A DNA stretch of 64,000 bases from Microbacterium saperdae. GTDB lineage: Bacteria > Actinomycetota > Actinomycetes > Actinomycetales > Microbacteriaceae. The position numbers and the translations under genes were made by a program. The notes under the pieces were generated by a model, which searched no databases, had not been told where the DNA came from, and worked only from the letters and a program-made list of their open reading frames with translations. Location: positions 992,001-1,056,000 of the forward strand of contig NZ_VFOX01000001.1 in NCBI RefSeq assembly GCF_006716345.1. Direction: 5' to 3'. This document shows positions 17,221 through 55,945 of this stretch, in pieces. The stretch's first letter is position 1. The number at the start of each line of letters is the position of its first letter.

Positions 17221-18987
17221 TCAGCTGATCGTGAGCAGCTGATGACCGGCGGACACCGTGCTGCCGGCCTGTGCGTTGATGTTGCCGACGACGCCGTCCT
17301 TGTGCGCCTGCAGCGGCTGCTCCATCTTCATCGCCTCCAGGACCACGACCAGGTCGCCCTTGACGACCTGCTGTCCGTCCTCGACCGCGATCTTGACGAC
17401 GGTGGCCTGCATCGGCGACTTGACGGCATCGCCCGATGCGCCCGCATTCGCCGTGGTCGCATGGCTGCGACGCGACGGCGGAACGACGGCAGGGCGCCCA
17501 GCCGTGCCGGCAGCGACCGCGACGCGATCGGGAAGGCTCACCTCGAGTCGCTTGCCGGCGACCTCGACGACGACCGTGTGACGTCCGTCCGAGGCGGCGG
17601 CCGGCTCGAGCTCGCCGTCCCACGCGGGGATGTCGTTGTCGAACTCGGTCTCGATCCAGCGGGTGAAGATGGCGAAGTTGCCGTCTTCCGCCGTGAACGC
17701 GGGGTCGCGGACGACCTTGCGGTGGAAGGGGAGGACCGTGGGGAGACCGGCGACCTCGAACTCGTCGAGTGCGCGACGCGACCGCTCCAGCGCCTCCTCG
17801 CGGTTCTTGCCGGTGACGATGATCTTGGCCAGCAGCGAGTCGAACGCGCCGGAGACCACGTCGCCGGCGGTGACACCGGAGTCGAGACGGATGCCGGGAC
17901 CGCCGAACGTCTTGAAGACGTTCACGGGTCCGGGCTGGGGGAGGAAGCCGCGCCCGGGGTCCTCGCCGTTGATCCGGAACTCGATGGAGTGGCCCTGCGG
18001 CTCCGGGTCGGCGTAGTCGATCGTGCCGCCGGCGGCGATGCGGAACTGCTCACGCACCAGGTCGATGCCGGTGACCTCTTCCGAGACCGGGTGCTCGACC
18101 TGCAGGCGGGTGTTGACCTCGAGGAACGACACGGTGCCGTCGGCGCCGATCAGGAACTCGCAGGTGCCGGCACCGACGTAGCCGACCTCCTTCAGGATGG
18201 CCTTGGAAGCCGAGTAGAGCAGGCTGTTCTGCTCGTCCGTCAGGAACGGCGCCGGTGCCTCTTCGACCAGCTTCTGGTGTCGGCGCTGCAGCGAGCAGTC
18301 GCGCGTCGAGATCACGACGACGTTGCCCGCAGCATCCGCGAGGCACTGGGTCTCGACGTGACGCGGCTTGTCGAGGTACTTCTCCACGAAGCACTCGCCG
18401 CGACCGAAGGCCGTGACGGCCTCGCGCGTGGCGGATTCGAAGAGCTCGGCGACCTCGGCGAGCTCGCGTGCCACCTTGAGGCCGCGTCCGCCTCCGCCAT
18501 AGGCCGCCTTGATCGCGATCGGCAGGCCGAACTCCTCGGCGAACGCCACGACCTCATCGGCGCCTGACACGGGTCCGGGGGTGCCGGGTGCCAGCGGCGC
18601 GCCGACCTTCTCGGCGACGTGACGCGCGGTCACCTTGTCGCCGAGGGCTTCGATCGCTTCGGGGGACGGACCGATCCAGGTCATCCCCGCACCGATGATC
18701 GCGCGAGCGAACTCGGCGTTCTCGGCGAGGAATCCGTACCCGGGGTGCACGGCGTCTGCTCCGGCGCGGCGGGCGACGGAGAGGATCTTCTCGATCTGGA
18801 GGTAGGTCTCGGCGCTGGTGGCCCCGCCGAGGGCGTAGGCCTCGTCGGCGAGCCGCGTGTGCAGCGCGTCGCGGTCCTGGTCGGCGTAGACGGCGACCGA
18901 AGCGATCCCGGAGTCACGAGCGGCACGGATGATGCGTACGGCGATCTCGCCGCGGTTGGCGATGAGCACCTTGGCGATAGCAGGCAT
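17221..18987 (-). CDS. acyl-CoA carboxylase alpha chain (biotin carboxylase + biotin carrier)
   Basis: A 588-residue fusion. Residues 1-450 are biotin carboxylase ([14 protein letters not shown] start, ATP-grasp loop [28 protein letters not shown]). A linker of about 60 residues follows, and the carrier domain ends the protein with Lys554 in EAMKMEQP as biotinylation site. With separate beta and epsilon subunits it makes malonyl-CoA or methylmalonyl-CoA, as AccA3 does in mycobacteria; candidates for both are at 28579-30389. ATG 18987 is chosen because TAGGCT lies seven bases before it (leaderless) and the domain starts at once; the frame is open further upstream. Confidence 0.94.
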
Positions 18988-19072
18988 GGTTGCCAGCCTA
19001 GCGAGAAGCCCACCGAACCAATTGACGACTCTCCACAAGAAAGACGTCGAAACGTCGCGCAGAGTCTACGAG

Positions 19073-19729
19073 TCAGTCGGACTGCGGGATGTTCCAGAGA
19101 TCGGTCCACGTCACGTCGAGATCCGCGGCCAGACGGCGGATCGTCGACAACGACATTCCGACGACCGTGGACGGATCACCGTCGACGCGTGTGATGAACG
19201 CACCGCCGAGACTGTCGACCGTGAACGCACCCGCGACGTACAGCGGCTCTCCGGAGGCGACGTACACGGCGATCTCCTCGTCGCTGATGTCCTCCGCGAA
19301 GGTCACGGCCGCCTCGGCGGTCGCGGTCGCCTCGACCGGAGCAGCGCCCGGGGCGATCCGGAAGACGGAGTGGCCCGAGTGCAGGATCCCGGTCGCGCCG
19401 CGCATCTCGTGCCAGCGGCGGGTGGCTTCGGCTGCCGTGTGCGGTTTGCCGTAGACGCGGCCGTTCAGCGCGAACATCGAGTCCCCACCGATCACGATGC
19501 CGTCGAACCCGGGGTCTTCCGCGGCCACGCGGCGCGCCACGTCGGCTGCTTTGGCCCGTGCGAGCAGCAGCACCAGCTCGGCCGGGGGCAGTTCCGCTCC
19601 CGCGGCCTCGGTGGCGGCCGCGGCGACCGCCTCCTCGTCGACGTCCGGCGACGCGGTCAGAGGCTCGATCCCCGCCTGTCGCAGCAGCATCAGGCGGGCG
19701 GGAGAGGTGGAGGCGAGGCAGACGCGCAT
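19073..19729 (-). CDS. Maf-family nucleotide pyrophosphatase
   Basis: A 218-residue Maf protein (canonical or modified-nucleotide pyrophosphatase). It begins MRVCLASTSPARLMLLRQAGI, where the first loop contains the usual S-x-S-P-x-R-like motif, and has GGDSMFALNGRVYGKP in the middle, matching the D-S/T-V-V-x(n)-GKP region. It is reported to clear non-standard nucleoside triphosphates or to affect septum formation. ATG 19729 rather than an in-frame GTG ten bases upstream is chosen because TACGGT lies seven bases before it. The gene is only 23 bases from a divergent methyltransferase. Maf next to carboxylase genes is also found in Mycobacterium. Confidence 0.9.
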   Translation of the reverse strand: MRVCLASTSPARLMLLRQAGIEPLTASPDVDEEAVAAAATEAAGAELPPAELVLLLARAKAADVARRVAAEDPGFDGIVIGGDSMFALNGRVYGKPHTAAEATRRWHEMRGATGILHSGHSVFRIAPGAAPVEATATAEAAVTFAEDISDEEIAVYVASGEPLYVAGAFTVDSLGGAFITRVDGDPSTVVGMSLSTIRRLAADLDVTWTDLWNIPQSD

Positions 19730-19736
19730 GTTCACC

Positions 19737-19746
19737 ACCGTATCCT
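19737..19746. promoter_or_regulatory. overlapping divergent -10 elements (maf / methyltransferase)
   Basis: On the plus strand TATCCT (19741-19746) is six bases before the methyltransferase ATG. On the minus strand TACGGT (19742-19737) is seven bases before the maf ATG. The two hexamers share two base pairs, and both genes would be leaderless. Any -35 elements would have to lie inside the two coding regions; none resembles TTGACA. Confidence 0.6.
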
Positions 19747-19752
19747 CGAAGA

Positions 19753-20988
19753 ATGACTTCTTCCTCTGCCGACGTGCTCGACCTCGACATCACCGGGATC
19801 GCGCACGGCGGGACCTTCGTCGCCCGCCATGAGGGACGTGTCGTGTTCGTCTCGGACGCGATCCCGGGGGAGCGCGTCCGCGCCCGGCTGATCGATCCGC
19901 AGGACGACGCGGCCGACAGTCGGAGCTTCTGGCGAGCCGAGGCGATCGAGGTCCTCGACGCCTCTCCACACCGTCAGGCGCACATCTGGCCCGAGGCGGA
20001 CATCTCCCGCGATCCCGCCGAGCGCCCGGGTGGCGCTGACCTGGGTCACATCGAGCTCGGACATCAGCGCACGCTCAAGCGTCAAGTGCTGTCGGAGGCG
20101 TTCGACCGGTTCGCCGGAGGCGGGCTGGAGGCCCCCGAGGTCGAAGCCGTCGAATCCGGTGATGGTATGGGTTGGCGCACGCGCGTCACGCTGCACGTCG
20201 ACGACGCCGGCCGTGTCGGTCCTTTCGCGGCCAGGAGCCATCGCGTCATCCCCGTGCGCTCGCACCCGCTCGCCCGTCCGGCGGTCGCGCAGGCGGCGCT
20301 CGCACTGCGTGGGGGAGCGGCGGGGCGTATCGATCTCGTCGAGCCGGCCGATGGTGAGGTGCGCGTGATCCGTCACGAGGACGGCGCGCGTCCCGTGCAC
20401 CGCGGAGGGCGTCGGCCCGAGCCCGAGGTCGTGTACGAGCAGGTCGGCGACCGTCGCTTCGAGGTCGATGTCAACGGGTTCTGGCAGGTGCACCCTCGGG
20501 CGGCATCCGTTCTCGACGGTGCGGTCTACGGCGTGCTCGACGGGCACGTCGACCCGGATTCGACCCATTACGACCTCTATGGCGGAGTCGGCCTGTTCGC
20601 GGCGACCCTGGCCGACCTCGGCGCGACGGATGTCGTGACGGTCGAGTCGAGCAAGCGCGCGACCCAGCACGCGGCCGCGAACCTCGCACCGCTGCAGGCG
20701 ACCGCGGTGACCGCGCGCGTCGATCGCTTCCTGCAGAGTGCCGCCGGACGCACGGGAACCGGGGCGGTCGTCCTGGACCCGCCCCGCGCCGGTGCGGGGC
20801 GAGCGGTGGTCGAGGGCGTGCACGCGCTCGACCCCGCAGCGATCGCGTACGTCGCCTGTGATCCCGTCGCCCTCGCCCGTGACCTCGGTACCTTCCGCGG
20901 TCTGGGGTGGAACGTGACGATGCTGCGTTCCTTCGACCTGTTCCCGCATTCGCACCACTTCGAGGTCGTCGCCCTGCTCACCCGGTGA
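19753..20988 (+). CDS. TRAM-domain class I RNA methyltransferase (TrmA/RumA family)
   Basis: A 411-residue enzyme of the RNA (uracil-C5)-methyltransferase family. Residues about 5-65 form a TRAM domain (DLDITGIAHGGTFVAR, RVRARLI). The SAM domain has DLYGGVGLFAATLA, LDPPRAGAG and the catalytic cysteine in YVACDPVALARDL. That is the only cysteine in the protein: the four cysteines that hold the 4Fe-4S cluster in RumA/RlmD are absent (GGADLGH stands where CGGCxLQH is usual). The exact uridine target (23S rRNA or tRNA) cannot be read. The ATG has TATCCT six bases upstream. Confidence 0.9.
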   Translation: MTSSSADVLDLDITGIAHGGTFVARHEGRVVFVSDAIPGERVRARLIDPQDDAADSRSFWRAEAIEVLDASPHRQAHIWPEADISRDPAERPGGADLGHIELGHQRTLKRQVLSEAFDRFAGGGLEAPEVEAVESGDGMGWRTRVTLHVDDAGRVGPFAARSHRVIPVRSHPLARPAVAQAALALRGGAAGRIDLVEPADGEVRVIRHEDGARPVHRGGRRPEPEVVYEQVGDRRFEVDVNGFWQVHPRAASVLDGAVYGVLDGHVDPDSTHYDLYGGVGLFAATLADLGATDVVTVESSKRATQHAAANLAPLQATAVTARVDRFLQSAAGRTGTGAVVLDPPRAGAGRAVVEGVHALDPAAIAYVACDPVALARDLGTFRGLGWNVTMLRSFDLFPHSHHFEVVALLTR

Positions 20989-21041
20989 CGCGCGGCGACA
21001 GGGTCCCTCGCCGGGCCCTGCCGACTCACTAGGCTGGGTGG

Positions 21042-21701
21042 ATGAGCACGGTCGCCCTCATCGATGATCACGAGTCCGTTCGCCTCGGCCTTGAGGCCGC
21101 GTTCGCGCGCGACTCGCAGACCGTCGTGTTCTCCGGCAGTTCCGTCAGCTCCTACCTCGACTGGCGGAAGAGTTCGGGAGCGGCCCCTGCCGAGGTCGTG
21201 GTGCTGGACCTCACGCTCGGTGACGGCACCACGGTCACCGAGAACGTCACGTCTCTGGTCGCCGACGGCGCGAGTGTCGTGATCCACAGCGTGGCCGACC
21301 GTCCCGCCGCCGTGCGCGAAGCACTGTCCGCCGGTGCGGCCGGGGTCGTCAGCAAGTCTTCGGCACTCGATGATGTGCTCGATGCGATCCGGACGGTGGC
21401 CCAGGGCGAGGCGCTGAACAACGTCGAATGGGCGAGCGCCGTCGACGGCGACCGCGACTTCGGCGACGCCCAGCTGTCGACGCGTGAGCGCGAGGTGTTG
21501 CGCCTGTACGCCACCGGACTCCCGCTCAAGGCGGTGGCCGAGCGACTCGGCGTCGCCTACTCCACCGCCAAGGAGAACATCACGCGCATCCGTGTGAAGT
21601 ACGTCGACGTGGGTCGCCCTGCTCCGACCAAGGTCGATCTGCTGCGTCGCGCGATGGAGGACGGGATCGTCGAGACAGACGGAGATCCGAGTGGCCACTG
21701 A
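21042..21701 (+). CDS. NarL/FixJ-type response regulator
   Basis: A 219-residue regulator. The receiver (about 1-120) has the acidic pair in ALIDDHESVRLG, the phospho-acceptor Asp in VVVLDLTLGDG and the conserved Lys in GVVSKSS. A LuxR-type HTH (about 150-212) reads LSTREREVLRLYATG and ERLGVAYSTAKENITRIRVKY. It opens a three-gene unit with a histidine kinase (11-base overlap) and a kinase-like membrane protein. TAGGCT at 21030-21035 is six bases before the ATG, so the message is probably leaderless. Target genes are not evident. Confidence 0.93.
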   Translation: MSTVALIDDHESVRLGLEAAFARDSQTVVFSGSSVSSYLDWRKSSGAAPAEVVVLDLTLGDGTTVTENVTSLVADGASVVIHSVADRPAAVREALSAGAAGVVSKSSALDDVLDAIRTVAQGEALNNVEWASAVDGDRDFGDAQLSTREREVLRLYATGLPLKAVAERLGVAYSTAKENITRIRVKYVDVGRPAPTKVDLLRRAMEDGIVETDGDPSGH

Positions 21702-22920
21702 CGCCCTCGACATCCGCGAGGCCTGGAGTAAGATCCCCTCTCCCGGCACGGCGGAGACCGAGTTCGAGCGCTTCACCGGCAAGCGCATGGAGCGGATCCT
21801 GGCGACCGTGGTCGCGATCGGATCGGCGACTCTCGGCGCGCAGGCGTTCGTCGCGGCCGTCGGTTCCTTCTCTCGCGGCGATGTCCCGCAGATCGTCGTG
21901 CTCCTCGTCGTCTTCATCCCGTTGGCGGCGATGCTCGTCGCCTGCATCCTCGGTCGCTGGGTCTCCATCGCCGCAGGCTCCTTCGCCGTCTCCTACGTCC
22001 TCGCACTCGTGGCGTGGCCGATCGTGGTCCCCCCGGGGGGAGCGGGCGACCAGCCCTGGATCTTCTTCCTGGTCAACGTCTGCGTCGTCGCGGCGATGCT
22101 CGCCTTCCCGATCCGCCTCCAGATCGCCTGGGCCGCCGGTCTGCCCTTCATCTATGGATACGTGCGGCTGGTGCAGGGGAGCTTCTCCCGCGACTTCTGG
22201 ATCACGACGGCGTTCGACGTCTCGTTCACGCTGATCCTGGGCATCGTGATCGTCGCGCTCGGATGGATGTTCCGCTCCGTCGCGGCCGGCGTCGACGATG
22301 CGCGAGGGCGCGCCGTCGCCTCGTACGCCTCGGCTGCGGCGGCCGCCGCAGCAGAAGAGGAGCGGGTGGCGATGTCCGCGCTGATGCACGACAGCGTCCT
22401 GGCCGCACTCATCGCCGCGGAACGGGCGGAGAGCGAGCGTGCGCGTGAGCTCGCGGTCGCGATGGCGCGCGAGGCCCTGACCCGTCTGGCCAACACGGAG
22501 GCCGCGGTGGCCCAGGAGGGCAGCGACGAGCCGGTCGGCATCTCGCAGATCGTGGTCGAGCTGCGCCGCGCGCTCTCGGAGCTCGGCGCCGACGCGATCG
22601 TGGAGGAGCGCGGAGGCATCGGCCTGATCCCCGGACGCGTGGCACGCGCTCTCGTCCTGGCCGCACGCCAGGCGATCGGCAACGCGGTGGCGCATGCACA
22701 GGGTCGGGGACTGCACATCATCGCGACGGGCCGCGGGGACGAGGGGATCATCGTGGCGATCTCCGATACCGGCGCCGGATTCGACATCGACACGATCGGC
22801 CCTGATCGACTGGGCATCAGCGCCTCGATCTTCGCGCGCATGGCCGGCGTCGCCGGTACTGCCGACATCGTCTCCGGTCCGCAGGGCACCACGGTCACAC
22901 TCGGCTGGGAGCGCTCATGA
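21691..22920 (+). CDS. membrane histidine kinase
   Basis: A 409-residue sensor kinase with five to six hydrophobic helices (about 30-200), a short Ala-rich linker, a dimerisation helix with phospho-acceptor His233 (SALMHDSVLAAL) and a C-terminal ATP-binding domain with N-box Asn (AARQAIGNAVAHA) and ISDTGAGFDID. There is no large external domain, so the signal is probably sensed in or at the membrane. The GTG start overlaps the regulator's end. The partner regulator is encoded upstream. It resembles a second kinase at 53811-54974 in layout. Confidence 0.9.
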   Translation: MATDALDIREAWSKIPSPGTAETEFERFTGKRMERILATVVAIGSATLGAQAFVAAVGSFSRGDVPQIVVLLVVFIPLAAMLVACILGRWVSIAAGSFAVSYVLALVAWPIVVPPGGAGDQPWIFFLVNVCVVAAMLAFPIRLQIAWAAGLPFIYGYVRLVQGSFSRDFWITTAFDVSFTLILGIVIVALGWMFRSVAAGVDDARGRAVASYASAAAAAAAEEERVAMSALMHDSVLAALIAAERAESERARELAVAMAREALTRLANTEAAVAQEGSDEPVGISQIVVELRRALSELGADAIVEERGGIGLIPGRVARALVLAARQAIGNAVAHAQGRGLHIIATGRGDEGIIVAISDTGAGFDIDTIGPDRLGISASIFARMAGVAGTADIVSGPQGTTVTLGWERS

Positions 22921-23927
22921 ACCGGACGGTGCGTAGTGTCGCGACGTCGCTCGCCGTCGGCTTCGCCATGTACTTCGTCGCCCGCTCCATCTGGTGGACG
23001 GTGCAGCCCACCGCGCCGGTGCTGATGGTGCTGGCGATCGCCGTCTATCTCGTCGCGGTCCTCATCGCGATCCTCTGGGACTCCGCCTCGTCGGTACGGA
23101 TGCCGCTGTGGACGGCGCTGCTGTCCCTGCTGGCATGCCTGCTCGTACCACCCCTGGTCACGCTCTCGTTGGACGTGACGGCTCGCACCGCGCCGTTCGC
23201 GACCTGGTACATCGGCGGGCTCGGCCTGTTCGGCATCGTCTGCGTCGTGCGGCGCCGATTCCTGATCGGATGGCTCACGGTCGCCGTGCTCGTGGCGACG
23301 TCAGCGGGCTATCTGGGCTTCGGCGTCGCGCTGAATCTGGGGTTGGTCGGCTCGATCATGTGGGTCGTGGTCGCTCAGCTGCTCGTGCTGTTCTGGGACA
23401 AGGCGATCCGCGACACCGCCCGGCTGGCGGAGATCCAGCAGGCGGTCTCCGCGTGGCATGCGACGCAGCTGGTGCGCCAGCGGGAGCGGCGGCTGCGCAC
23501 GCAGTTCGCGCTCGCTGTGGCAGGGCCGGTGCTCAGTCGCGTCGTGGCTTCCCGCGGCAGCCTGACGGTCGATGAGCGGCTGGAAGCGCGTCTCGCCGAA
23601 GGGCGGCTGCGCGATGAGCTGCGCGGCGCGGATCTGCTCAACGACGCGGTGCGTGATGCGATCGAGGATGCGCGACGACGCGGTGTGATCGTCACGGTCT
23701 TCGACGAGGGAGGTCTCGACGGCGTCGAAGAGGATCGTCGTGCCGAGATCAGGGATGAGCTCGCCGTGGTCCTGCGCAAGGCGCAGGCAGGGCGATTGAT
23801 CATCCGCTCGTCCAACGATGAGCGGATCGCGGTGACGGTCGTGGGGCGGGCGAGTTCGGGATCGTCGCGGGATGACGACGAGGTCGACCTGTGGCACGAG
23901 ATCTCGCGCGAGGTCGCGACGGGCTGA
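22917..23927 (+). CDS. membrane protein with degenerate kinase-like C-terminal domain
   Basis: A 336-residue protein: about five to six membrane helices (residues 10-165), a charged helical stretch (about 165-245), then a domain (about 245-320). By eye this domain lines up with the ATP-binding domain of the kinase before it: RGVIVTVFDEGGLDG matches the EERGG strand, and IRDELAVVLRKAQAGRLII sits where the N-box helix is. The N-box Asn, the DxGxG loop and a phospho-acceptor His are missing, so it should not be an active kinase. Its ATG overlaps the kinase stop by four bases. It may form heterodimers with the kinase or tune it; this is inference. A paralogue is at 54962-55945. Confidence 0.72.
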   Translation: MNRTVRSVATSLAVGFAMYFVARSIWWTVQPTAPVLMVLAIAVYLVAVLIAILWDSASSVRMPLWTALLSLLACLLVPPLVTLSLDVTARTAPFATWYIGGLGLFGIVCVVRRRFLIGWLTVAVLVATSAGYLGFGVALNLGLVGSIMWVVVAQLLVLFWDKAIRDTARLAEIQQAVSAWHATQLVRQRERRLRTQFALAVAGPVLSRVVASRGSLTVDERLEARLAEGRLRDELRGADLLNDAVRDAIEDARRRGVIVTVFDEGGLDGVEEDRRAEIRDELAVVLRKAQAGRLIIRSSNDERIAVTVVGRASSGSSRDDDEVDLWHEISREVATG

Positions 23928-53810: not shown

Positions 53811-54974
53811 ATGGGGACTCGGCTTTCAGAACAGGGGATGGCGGATCCGCGCACCGACCGACAGGTCGGATGGCTGATCGCTCTGGGGTCGTTGGTCGGC
53901 GCGTTCGCGCAGGCGGCTCCGCTCTCCTTCGTGCAGGCAGGGATGTTCGCGTCCTGGTGGCAGGCCGCGTCCTGGATCTGCATCTGTCTTTTCGTCGTGA
54001 TCGCGGTCGGCGGACGGGTGCTGCCGATGGGCGTGCTCCGGGTGCTCTGGGTGCTGATCCCGGCGTGCGTGATCTCGCTCCAGCTGCTCTCGTTCCTCGC
54101 CTACGTCGGCCCGGCGGACGGCGTCGTGCCGTGGGTGTGGATGATCGAGCCCGGGTCCGTCACCCTCCTCGTTCTCCTCGTCCGTCCTGTCATCGCGATC
54201 GCGCTCGCCGTCTTCTCCGGCATGTCGGTGGCGCTCTCGGCCTGGATCTTCACGGGCTCCGTGCCCGAGGTGATCGCCGCGGCGACGCCCATCCACGTCA
54301 GCAACATCGCGTTCGTGGTGATCTTCATCGGCATCCGCGGGCGATTGACGCAGCTGCGCCGCCTGGAAGAGGACGCACGTCTCGCTGCTGAGCGCCAGGC
54401 GCGCCAGGAGGCGGAGGCCGAACGCAACGCCGAGCTCCAGCGTCTCGTACACGACGAGGTGCTCTCGGTGCTCGCCGCGGCGGCCCTGTTCCGGGGCGCG
54501 GCACCCCGGGAGCTGCAGGACGAGGCGGCGCACGCCCTCCTGGTGCTCAGAGACTCCGGCGACCCGGATGATACGGGTGGCGCGGGCGCCGTGATCGACA
54601 CCGCGGAGGCCGCGGAGGAGATCCGCCTGCGCGCAGCGCGCTTCTCATCGGTGGAGCTGCGCATCGATGATCGAGGAGGGTTCCTTCCGGCCGACGTCGT
54701 GCAGGAGGTCTCGGCCGCGGCATCCGAGGCGATCCGCAACGCGCGACGCCACTCCGGAGCGGAACGCGTGTTCGTCGACGCGCTCTTCGCGCATGACCGC
54801 GTCCGCGTGGTCGTGCGCGATGACGGCATCGGCTTCGTCCTCGCTGCGGTGCCCGGGGAGCGTCTCGGCGTGCGTGACAGCATCATCCGTCGCCTGGCGG
54901 ACATCGGCGGCCGAGCGGAGATCGTCTCGGTGCCGCGCACGGGGACGGAGGTGTCGCTGTCATGGCCACGATGA
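53811..54974 (+). CDS. membrane histidine kinase (orphan)
   Basis: A 387-residue sensor kinase with about five hydrophobic helices (25-180), a charged coiled segment (about 180-212, RLEEDARLAAERQARQEAEAER), His214 in QRLVHDEVLSVLAAA as phospho-acceptor, and an ATP-binding domain with ASEAIRNARRHSG (N-box) and VRDDGIGF. AGGAGG six bases upstream fixes the start. It has the same plan as the kinase at 21691-22920 and is followed by the same kind of partner, but no response regulator gene accompanies it. Confidence 0.88.
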   Translation: MGTRLSEQGMADPRTDRQVGWLIALGSLVGAFAQAAPLSFVQAGMFASWWQAASWICICLFVVIAVGGRVLPMGVLRVLWVLIPACVISLQLLSFLAYVGPADGVVPWVWMIEPGSVTLLVLLVRPVIAIALAVFSGMSVALSAWIFTGSVPEVIAAATPIHVSNIAFVVIFIGIRGRLTQLRRLEEDARLAAERQARQEAEAERNAELQRLVHDEVLSVLAAAALFRGAAPRELQDEAAHALLVLRDSGDPDDTGGAGAVIDTAEAAEEIRLRAARFSSVELRIDDRGGFLPADVVQEVSAAASEAIRNARRHSGAERVFVDALFAHDRVRVVVRDDGIGFVLAAVPGERLGVRDSIIRRLADIGGRAEIVSVPRTGTEVSLSWPR

Positions 54975-55945
54975 CCTCGAGCGGCACCGGCGCGGCCGGC
55001 CTCGCCACGCGGGGCGCGCGGTGGGCGATGATCGCGGTGTGGTGCTGCGGCATCGCCCAGGGCGTGATCGAGGGGCGGTTCGCGCCGCCGGCTCCGGCCT
55101 ACCTCGGCGCGCTTCTCGTCGCTCTGCTGGGGGCTGTCGTCCTCACGTACCGCCGCGACGAGCCGCTGCGCGGACTGCGGGCATGGGCGGTGCCGGCGGC
55201 GACACTCACCACGACGGCGCTGATGCTGACGGTCGTGGACCAGGCGGATGCCACGTGGGTGATCGACTTCGCCTCCTACCTCGTCGCCCTGCAGATCGGT
55301 CGGGGCAACCCGGCGATCGGGGGGATCGGTCTCGCCGCACAGCTCGCACTCGTCGTCGGATGGGGAGCACTCACCGAGCAGTCCGCGTCGGGCATCGGCG
55401 CCATGCTCAGCATCCCGATCATGTCGGGGGTCGTCGGCGTGATCTGGCGACTGACGCTGCGCAACATGGTCGCCCGTGAGCGCGCGCACCGTTCCGAAGC
55501 CGCCGAGAGCGCGCGTCGGGGAGCCGCCGCGCGCGCGGCTGCAGAGCAGTACCGGGCGGAGCTCGGTGCGATCGCGCGCGAGGTGCAGGACGTGCTGGAA
55601 CGACTGCGTGATGCGGACGGGATCGACGACGACTTCCTCACCGAGTTGACCGCCCGGGAGGGCACGATCAGGGATCGCATCCGTTCGCCGCGCCTGCACC
55701 ATCCCGACATCGCCGATGCCGCCGCCGTGGCACGGAGGCGAGGGGTGCGCGTCGCGATACTCGCGAACCACGTCCCGGATGCGCCACGGATCAGCGACCG
55801 AGCGGCCAGGGAGGTGGCAGCCGTCCTCGCCGATGTCGGGGAGGGCTCGGTGGTGATCTCGTCGGGAGCCCGGGCGGTCGAGGCGCTCAGCATCGTGATC
55901 GACACGGGGAAGGAGCATCGACGTCTCGAGCTCTCGGTGCGGTGA
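54962..55945 (+). CDS. membrane protein with degenerate kinase-like domain (paralogue)
   Basis: A 327-residue protein with about five helices (20-160), a charged helical region (about 170-230) and a C-terminal domain of about 85 residues. It matches the partner protein at 22917-23927: ARRRGVRVAILA with RRRGVIVTVFD, and REVAAVLADVGEGSVVISS with DELAVVLRKAQAGRLIIRS. Phospho-acceptor His, N-box Asn and DxGxG are missing. It overlaps the kinase by 13 bases. ATG 54962 follows GGAGGTG; ATG 54971 would give an ATGA overlap instead. Confidence 0.7.
   Translation: MATMTSSGTGAAGLATRGARWAMIAVWCCGIAQGVIEGRFAPPAPAYLGALLVALLGAVVLTYRRDEPLRGLRAWAVPAATLTTTALMLTVVDQADATWVIDFASYLVALQIGRGNPAIGGIGLAAQLALVVGWGALTEQSASGIGAMLSIPIMSGVVGVIWRLTLRNMVARERAHRSEAAESARRGAAARAAAEQYRAELGAIAREVQDVLERLRDADGIDDDFLTELTAREGTIRDRIRSPRLHHPDIADAAAVARRRGVRVAILANHVPDAPRISDRAAREVAAVLADVGEGSVVISSGARAVEALSIVIDTGKEHRRLELSVR

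Follow-up and report, generated by a model that had tools for sequence, protein, structure and literature searches.

Introduction

Sensor kinases of bacterial two-component systems are normally treated as homodimers. Among the described systems closest to the locus presented here, the proteins FasB and FasC of group A Streptococcus gave a hetero-interaction and no homo-interaction in a two-hybrid assay, and the kinase domain of FasC was dispensable, its authors proposing that FasC is a pseudokinase (PMC12675982). In Corynebacterium glutamicum, the native kinases ChrS and HrrS heterodimerise (PMC9491836). Here we describe a locus of Microbacterium saperdae, within a stretch of 64,000 nucleotides (the window; contig NZ_VFOX01000001.1, positions 992,001 to 1,056,000), where three overlapping genes on one strand (21042-23927) encode a response regulator (RR), a sensor kinase (HK) and a membrane protein (PT). 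The genes stand where an earlier note, made from the sequence alone, had placed them. Gene order and overlap thus bring together two kinase-like proteins and one RR, with one of the two kinase-like proteins having a degenerate catalytic and ATP-binding (CA) domain. The host genome is 4.3 Mb in size and the best match of PT is a Microbacterium protein of 96% identity.

We propose that RR, HK and PT make up a two-component system of three parts whose sensor is an obligate, unequal kinase:pseudokinase pair, probably a heterodimer phosphorylating in cis, and we consider this proposal likely, although short of firmly established. It draws on the conserved linkage and repeated fusion of HK and PT, on their homology, and on the loss of catalytic residues from PT and their retention in HK. 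Coordinates are collected in Table 1, and labels such as L062 denote individual loci.

Conservation and fusion of the gene pair

HK is the immediate upstream neighbour of PT at 363 of the 366 loci. The linkage, which the earlier note had suggested surveying in Microbacteriaceae, is thus conserved in that family and beyond. The three exceptions are a locus at a contig edge (L062) and two fused genes in which the HK half falls below the profile threshold (L211, L214); four partial or frame-broken rows (L029, L055 and L330 for HK, L097 for PT) were not scored as exceptions. The 366 loci include repeats of one gene and the two pairs of the window, and without L062, L211 and L214 they comprise 326 pairs that are distinct by PT end. 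Stop and start codons share four bases, as ATGA or GTGA, in 280 of the 300 distinct split pairs. The whole trio stands in order in 77 of 78 close-relative loci among the matches listed, the remaining one starting at a contig edge, and among 20 distant loci HK and PT are found in all 20 and RR in 19.

Of 199 genomes surveyed from Microbacteriaceae, 148 have PT (60 of 85 genera). At the level of the order it occurs in 67 of 248 genomes (18 of 85 genera) and at that of the class in 57 of 296 (24 of 114 genera), where some weak matches (E near 1e-4, fewer than 100 positions) may be ordinary kinases. Weaker second copies of PT found in these surveys of family, order and class are not all in the locus set. 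Eight genomes of the family that measure just 1.1-1.7 Mb (two less than 90% complete) have 7-10 receiver domains, one of which adjoins a PT gene in each genome.

HK and PT occupy one stop-free frame in 27 of the 363 loci (26 of the 326 distinct pairs) and, by reading, also in L211 and L214. Loci L215-L244 were found with a fused query, and the share of fused pairs is therefore no frequency; outside that search fusions make up 7 of 333 pairs, or nine counting L211 and L214. At least 20 of 198 Microbacterium genomes carry a fusion, and fused proteins also occur in Frankia, Parafrankia and Humibacillus. An RR-like frame is found in the flank of all 20 fused Microbacterium loci considered, and both halves are held by 27 of 28 database relatives of the Frankia-type fusion, the query's own record counted. 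On a tree of 67 pairs the fused and split states alternate, with at least five changes, four of them forced by starred branches, although this count is approximate, the tree being a quick search with long branches that meet. A fused HK-PT from outside the order (L207 and L184) sits within the Microbacterium fusions on this tree, a hint of horizontal transfer. A separate database protein of 821 residues (P0132) carries two very similar and apparently intact kinase halves in tandem.

The PT profile scores the PT halves of fusions far above their own HK halves (63.0 against 6.1 bits in L209), and PT would thus seem to be one old lineage rather than the product of repeated decay. Because PT travels with HK, mostly in fixed translational coupling and repeatedly in one chain, the two proteins most likely form one sensor, and the fusions suggest that they do so by heterodimerisation.

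Homology and catalytic residues

The C-terminal domain of PT had been lined up by eye with the ATP-binding domain of HK in the earlier note. This likeness is not seen in a plain BLASTP comparison of the window HK with PT, which returns no significant match (E 1.2), but it is borne out by profiles. A comparison of 48 PTs with 45 HKs gave a probability of 29.6 (E 5.7e-4), 38 diverse PTs against the same 45 HKs gave 92.4 (E 5.1e-7), and 67 diverse PTs against 67 diverse HKs gave 97.7 (E 1.8e-12) over a span that begins in the later part of the membrane half and ends at the D-box, where the reversed control reached 28.9 over 14 columns. Moreover, the fold predicted for PT is a DHp hairpin followed by an HATPase_c-like domain, with moderate scores for the window PT and stronger scores for its relative L176, and the best Foldseek match of the window PT is the kinase DesK (PDB 7ssj, 3gie and others). 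The comparison with HATPase_c folds that had been suggested for PT therefore came out in favour of a kinase-like structure. The third helix and following strand of the domain are present in the L176 model and, by alignment, in L175 and L177. The last of the profile comparisons and the predicted folds support a kinase ancestry of PT. PT finds nothing in NCBIfam and just a chance match to SrfB (E 0.15) in Pfam, and its relatives among the matches listed are named mostly 'hypothetical protein' and in a few cases 'histidine kinase'.

In the HKs of the 326 distinct pairs the phospho-accepting His is present in 321, the N-box Asn and the D-box Asp each in 325, and the three Gly columns in all 326. 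Five HKs miss the His, three as partial or misaligned rows and two as extra copies with Arg. In two genomes outside the order, extra HK-PT copies (L361, L363) have Arg in place of the HK phospho-His, and both members of these pairs may be inactive. The completeness of HK rules out a split kinase, with the CA domain on one chain and the His on the other, as exemplified by HK1/HK2 of M. tuberculosis.

The statement that PT has no phospho-acceptor His, N-box Asn or DxGxG holds as a consensus over the same pairs. No phospho-accepting His is conserved in DHp helix 1, where the richest His column within residues 190-212 is residue 194 (20 of 326), and the highest His count of any column within residues 185-212 is 122 of 326, which leaves no conserved relay His. 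The column with 122 is residue 187, further up the helix than the expected site, where 114 PTs and that of the window have Arg. PT columns 280-286 and 305-311, which the hhalign register sets against the kinase N-box and D-box, show no such consensus. Pfam scans of both window PTs, of further distant PTs and of three fusions found no HPt domain. PT does not fit a phosphotransferase of either the RcsD HPt or the Spo0B type, having no conserved relay His and no HPt domain in these scans.

What PT does conserve is a set of charged residues, which in the hairpin are E228 (319 of 326), R232 (325), D233 (320) and R236 (321). Median dN/dS values over 30 relatives are 0.213 for PT, 0.172 for HK and 0.075 for RR, and PT is thus under purifying selection much like HK. 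Homology, fold, loss of catalytic residues and selection together support the earlier proposal of a duplicated kinase that has turned into a non-catalytic partner.

HK itself matches HATPase_c in Pfam at E 3.4e-4, which is under Pfam's cut-off, and Pfam HisKA_3 (PF07730) gave no match to HK in the Pfam scan, nor at the place of HK in a HisKA_3 search of the genome. A profile comparison of 67 HKs of the HK-PT type with 12 HisKA_3 kinases of the genome nevertheless gave E 1.2e-16, and on this alignment the HKs are related to the HisKA_3 kinases though missed by the Pfam model. In HisKA_3 kinases His, besides Gln, can serve at the phosphatase position, five residues after the phospho-accepting His (H+5). 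None of the 321 HKs carrying the HD motif has Gln or His there, and so they lack the DxxxQ-type phosphatase signature of HisKA_3, whereas 11 of 12 distinct other HisKA_3 kinases of the window's genome have one or the other (12 of 13 matches, two of which, L366 and L367, are one gene counted twice). The latter gene lies in reverse complement at the ends of both genome contigs, which are probably a single repeated contig end. As this phosphatase residue, usual in HisKA_3 kinases, is missing from the HKs, it is probably their kinase activity that is under control, and PT probably either tunes this activity or compensates for the lost phosphatase.

Proposed mechanism and alternative explanations

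In the mechanism that we propose, HK would be the sole catalytic subunit and PT a pseudokinase that goes back to an old duplication of a kinase, made together with HK by translational coupling or, in some lineages, fused to it. The two would pair through their helical DHp segments, as a heterodimer when separate and as a pseudo-dimer inside a single chain where they are fused. HK would then phosphorylate its own His in cis, from which the phosphoryl group would pass to RR, and PT would set the on or off state of HK through its own membrane half and the charged set E228, R232, D233, R236, R253, D263 and R297. A heterodimer would have to phosphorylate in cis on HK because PT supplies neither the His nor a working ATP site. 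Gene order, overlap and fusion, the homology, the fate of the catalytic residues in PT and HK and the selection are observed, while the physical pairing of HK and PT, phosphorylation in cis and the direction of control are inferred from the sequences.

Two further results bear on this proposal. A similar membrane half was the weakest of the earlier claims, since the membrane parts alone reach a profile probability of 30.7 over 41 columns, although the reversed control gives 0.4; this weak similarity slightly lowered our confidence in the proposal. In a covariation analysis with an effective number of 190, the couplings inside each protein agreed with the fold, but HK and PT showed no consistent excess of couplings between them and no DHp-DHp signal, a result that speaks neither for nor against pairing. 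The missing DHp-DHp signal would also suit an alternative in which HK is a normal homodimer and PT an accessory regulator, binding sideways, alone or as a dimer, via membrane helices, as has been reported or proposed for RocA and LiaF, the second of which is named as such an accessory protein (PMC12675982). We regard this as possible but unlikely, since several of the best-conserved PT residues sit in the DHp-like hairpin and the fusions fix the ratio of HK to PT at 1:1, both of which favour pairing.

The near-invariant residues R232, R236, R253, R297, D263 and E228, kept where the catalytic motifs are not, could instead mean that PT is a sensor whose degenerate ATP-site fold binds another ligand, be it a small molecule or a nucleotide. 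However, R236 and D263 covary (40th among the covarying pairs), which fits a structural salt bridge, and a ligand sensor appears to us decidedly unlikely. The lost phosphatase residue of HK, so common in the other HisKA_3 kinases of the genome, would suit a negative partner that mainly docks phosphorylated RR and promotes its dephosphorylation, replacing what HK has lost. This we think very unlikely, as PT has no HDxxxQ-like site at the expected place and its most common His, at residue 187, lies further up the helix. That PT is a functionless, decaying relic of a kinase duplication would account for the loss of its catalytic motifs, but is hardly credible, as its dN/dS, near that of HK, contradicts decay and the gene is retained across families and in genomes of 1.1-1.7 Mb.

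If the obligate kinase:pseudokinase sensor that we favour is correct, its meaning extends beyond the locus. Kinase:pseudokinase pairs are otherwise few single cases, whereas HK-PT, split and fused, is common to many families of a class and is kept even where a genome has few receiver proteins. With it one could ask, in a natural setting, what the second protomer of a sensor kinase does, one half being apparently without catalysis, and whether one-sided phosphorylation in cis suffices. It also provides a hypothesis of function for a family whose members mostly have no functional name. We see about an even chance that a large branch of actinobacterial sensors, so far undescribed, consists of such obligate unequal dimers, as coupled chains or as one chain with two membrane halves, which would be kinase-only and cis-phosphorylating with the dead half regulatory. 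An analogy of layout is offered by membrane adenylyl cyclases, in which the C1 and C2 halves are unequal.

Other features of the window

Of 76 loci, 73 have a TANNNT hexamer no more than 30 bases from the start of RR, while elsewhere the upstream sequence looks diverged in the rows inspected. A -10-like hexamer so near the start suggests that the operon mRNA is leaderless. Further upstream (17221-20988) lie accC-, maf- and TRAM-methyltransferase-like genes (names assigned by reading), whose position ahead of the trio is the same in all nine of the Leifsonia and Microcella loci compared.

The window holds a second HK-PT pair, whose PT shares a starred clade with two fused relatives, L234 and L179, and a split one, L182. 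No RR adjoins this pair, the only receiver domain listed inside the window being that of the trio. By reading, its neighbours are a prfB-like gene on one side and, on the opposite strand, an MFS-like gene on the other side. In L234, the nearest relative of the pair among those sampled, an RR-like frame does lie close by.

Table 1. Coordinates of the trio, of the second pair and of features within them (window positions; AF2, AlphaFold2)
Feature	Position	Strand	Remarks
TAGGCT, -10-like hexamer	21030..21035	+	6 bases ahead of RR start codon
RR	21042..21701	+	219 aa; receiver domain and LuxR/NarL-type helix-turn-helix; Pfam Response_reg 38.7 bits, GerE 28.3 bits, both above cut-off
HK	21691..22920	+	409 aa; GTG start; 11-base overlap with RR; hydrophobic N-terminal half, DHp (His233), ATP-binding domain
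Phospho-accepting His233 codon of HK	22387..22389	+	residue 238 (H+5, HisKA_3 phosphatase site) is Ala
N-box Asn331 codon of HK	22681..22683	+	Asn in 325/326
ATGA, PT start codon over HK stop codon	22917..22920	+	4-base overlap
PT	22917..23927	+	336 aa; putative pseudokinase partner, membrane protein with degenerate kinase half
PT hydrophobic helices, residues 1-160	22917..23396	+	AF2 secondary structure; last predicted helix 135-211 extends into DHp-like part
PT DHp-like helical hairpin, residues 183-240	23463..23636	+	AF2 helices to 211 and 218-240; bears E228, R232, D233, R236
PT degenerate ATP-binding-like domain, residues 243-331	23643..23909	+	without N-box Asn and DxGxG; lid and third helix missing
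PT near-invariant R253, G256, D263	23673..23705	+	322, 323 and 318 of 326
PT near-invariant R297	23805..23807	+	322/326
Second HK	53811..54974	+	HK profile E 1.9e-36; HATPase_c above cut-off; VHD, N-box and DDGIGF by reading
Second PT	54962..55945	+	PT profile E 1.4e-9; 13-base overlap with second HK

Comparison with known systems

The known system nearest in layout is FasBC/FasA, followed by RocA/CovS, DivL/CckA and the evolved ChrS pseudokinase. RocA/CovS differs from HK in kinase family, and DivL, which senses the response regulator DivK, is not known to form a translationally coupled pair with CckA, unlike PT with HK. FasB, FasC and FasA resemble RR-HK-PT as an operon of two kinase-like membrane proteins and one RR, but the phospho-site His of FasC (H246) is key to phosphate flow, so that labour is split over two chains, while in PT the His and the ATP site are both gone; the site bound by FasA is ComE-like, whereas the window RR is of the LuxR/NarL type; and, unlike HK-PT, no fused forms appear in the available portion of the source (PMC12675982). 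The likeness is one of layout.

RocA, like PT, is a membrane pseudokinase, with six putative transmembrane helices, a DHp and a degenerate CA domain, that interacts with an active kinase, CovS; it is, however, an accessory protein in which the predicted phospho-site His is present but dispensable, whereas PT has none, and the accessible part of the report describes no gene fusion, unlike HK-PT (PMC7028121). DivL of Caulobacter is similarly a pseudo-histidine kinase that controls an active kinase, CckA (PMC5361649, PMC4211667, PMC9491836, PMC12471899). ChrS_CA-fs, which acts through the paralogous kinase HrrS in C. glutamicum, shares with PT that it is an actinobacterial pseudokinase version of a kinase, but it is a laboratory-evolved frameshift, where PT is a natural family, and its truncated form showed no significant heterodimerisation (PMC9491836). 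As regards fold, the HisKA_3 kinase DesK has the DHp and CA domains predicted for PT, but is a kinase/phosphatase with His188 and Gln193 (PMC5231405), both of which PT lacks, along with the lid. Spo0B (PDB 1f51; Paenibacillus Spo0B-TM, PMC12826061) is a His phosphotransferase, whereas PT has no His at the expected site.

The earlier note knew of no described system of this exact kind. This stands for the gene family, of which no description stood among the matches listed in searches of an open-access library (subscription papers and preprints outside that library not being covered), but less so for the arrangement, given the analogues FasBC/FasA, RocA/CovS and DivL/CckA. HK-PT is thus a new, old and widespread family of kinase:pseudokinase sensors, of a kind that is rare but known.
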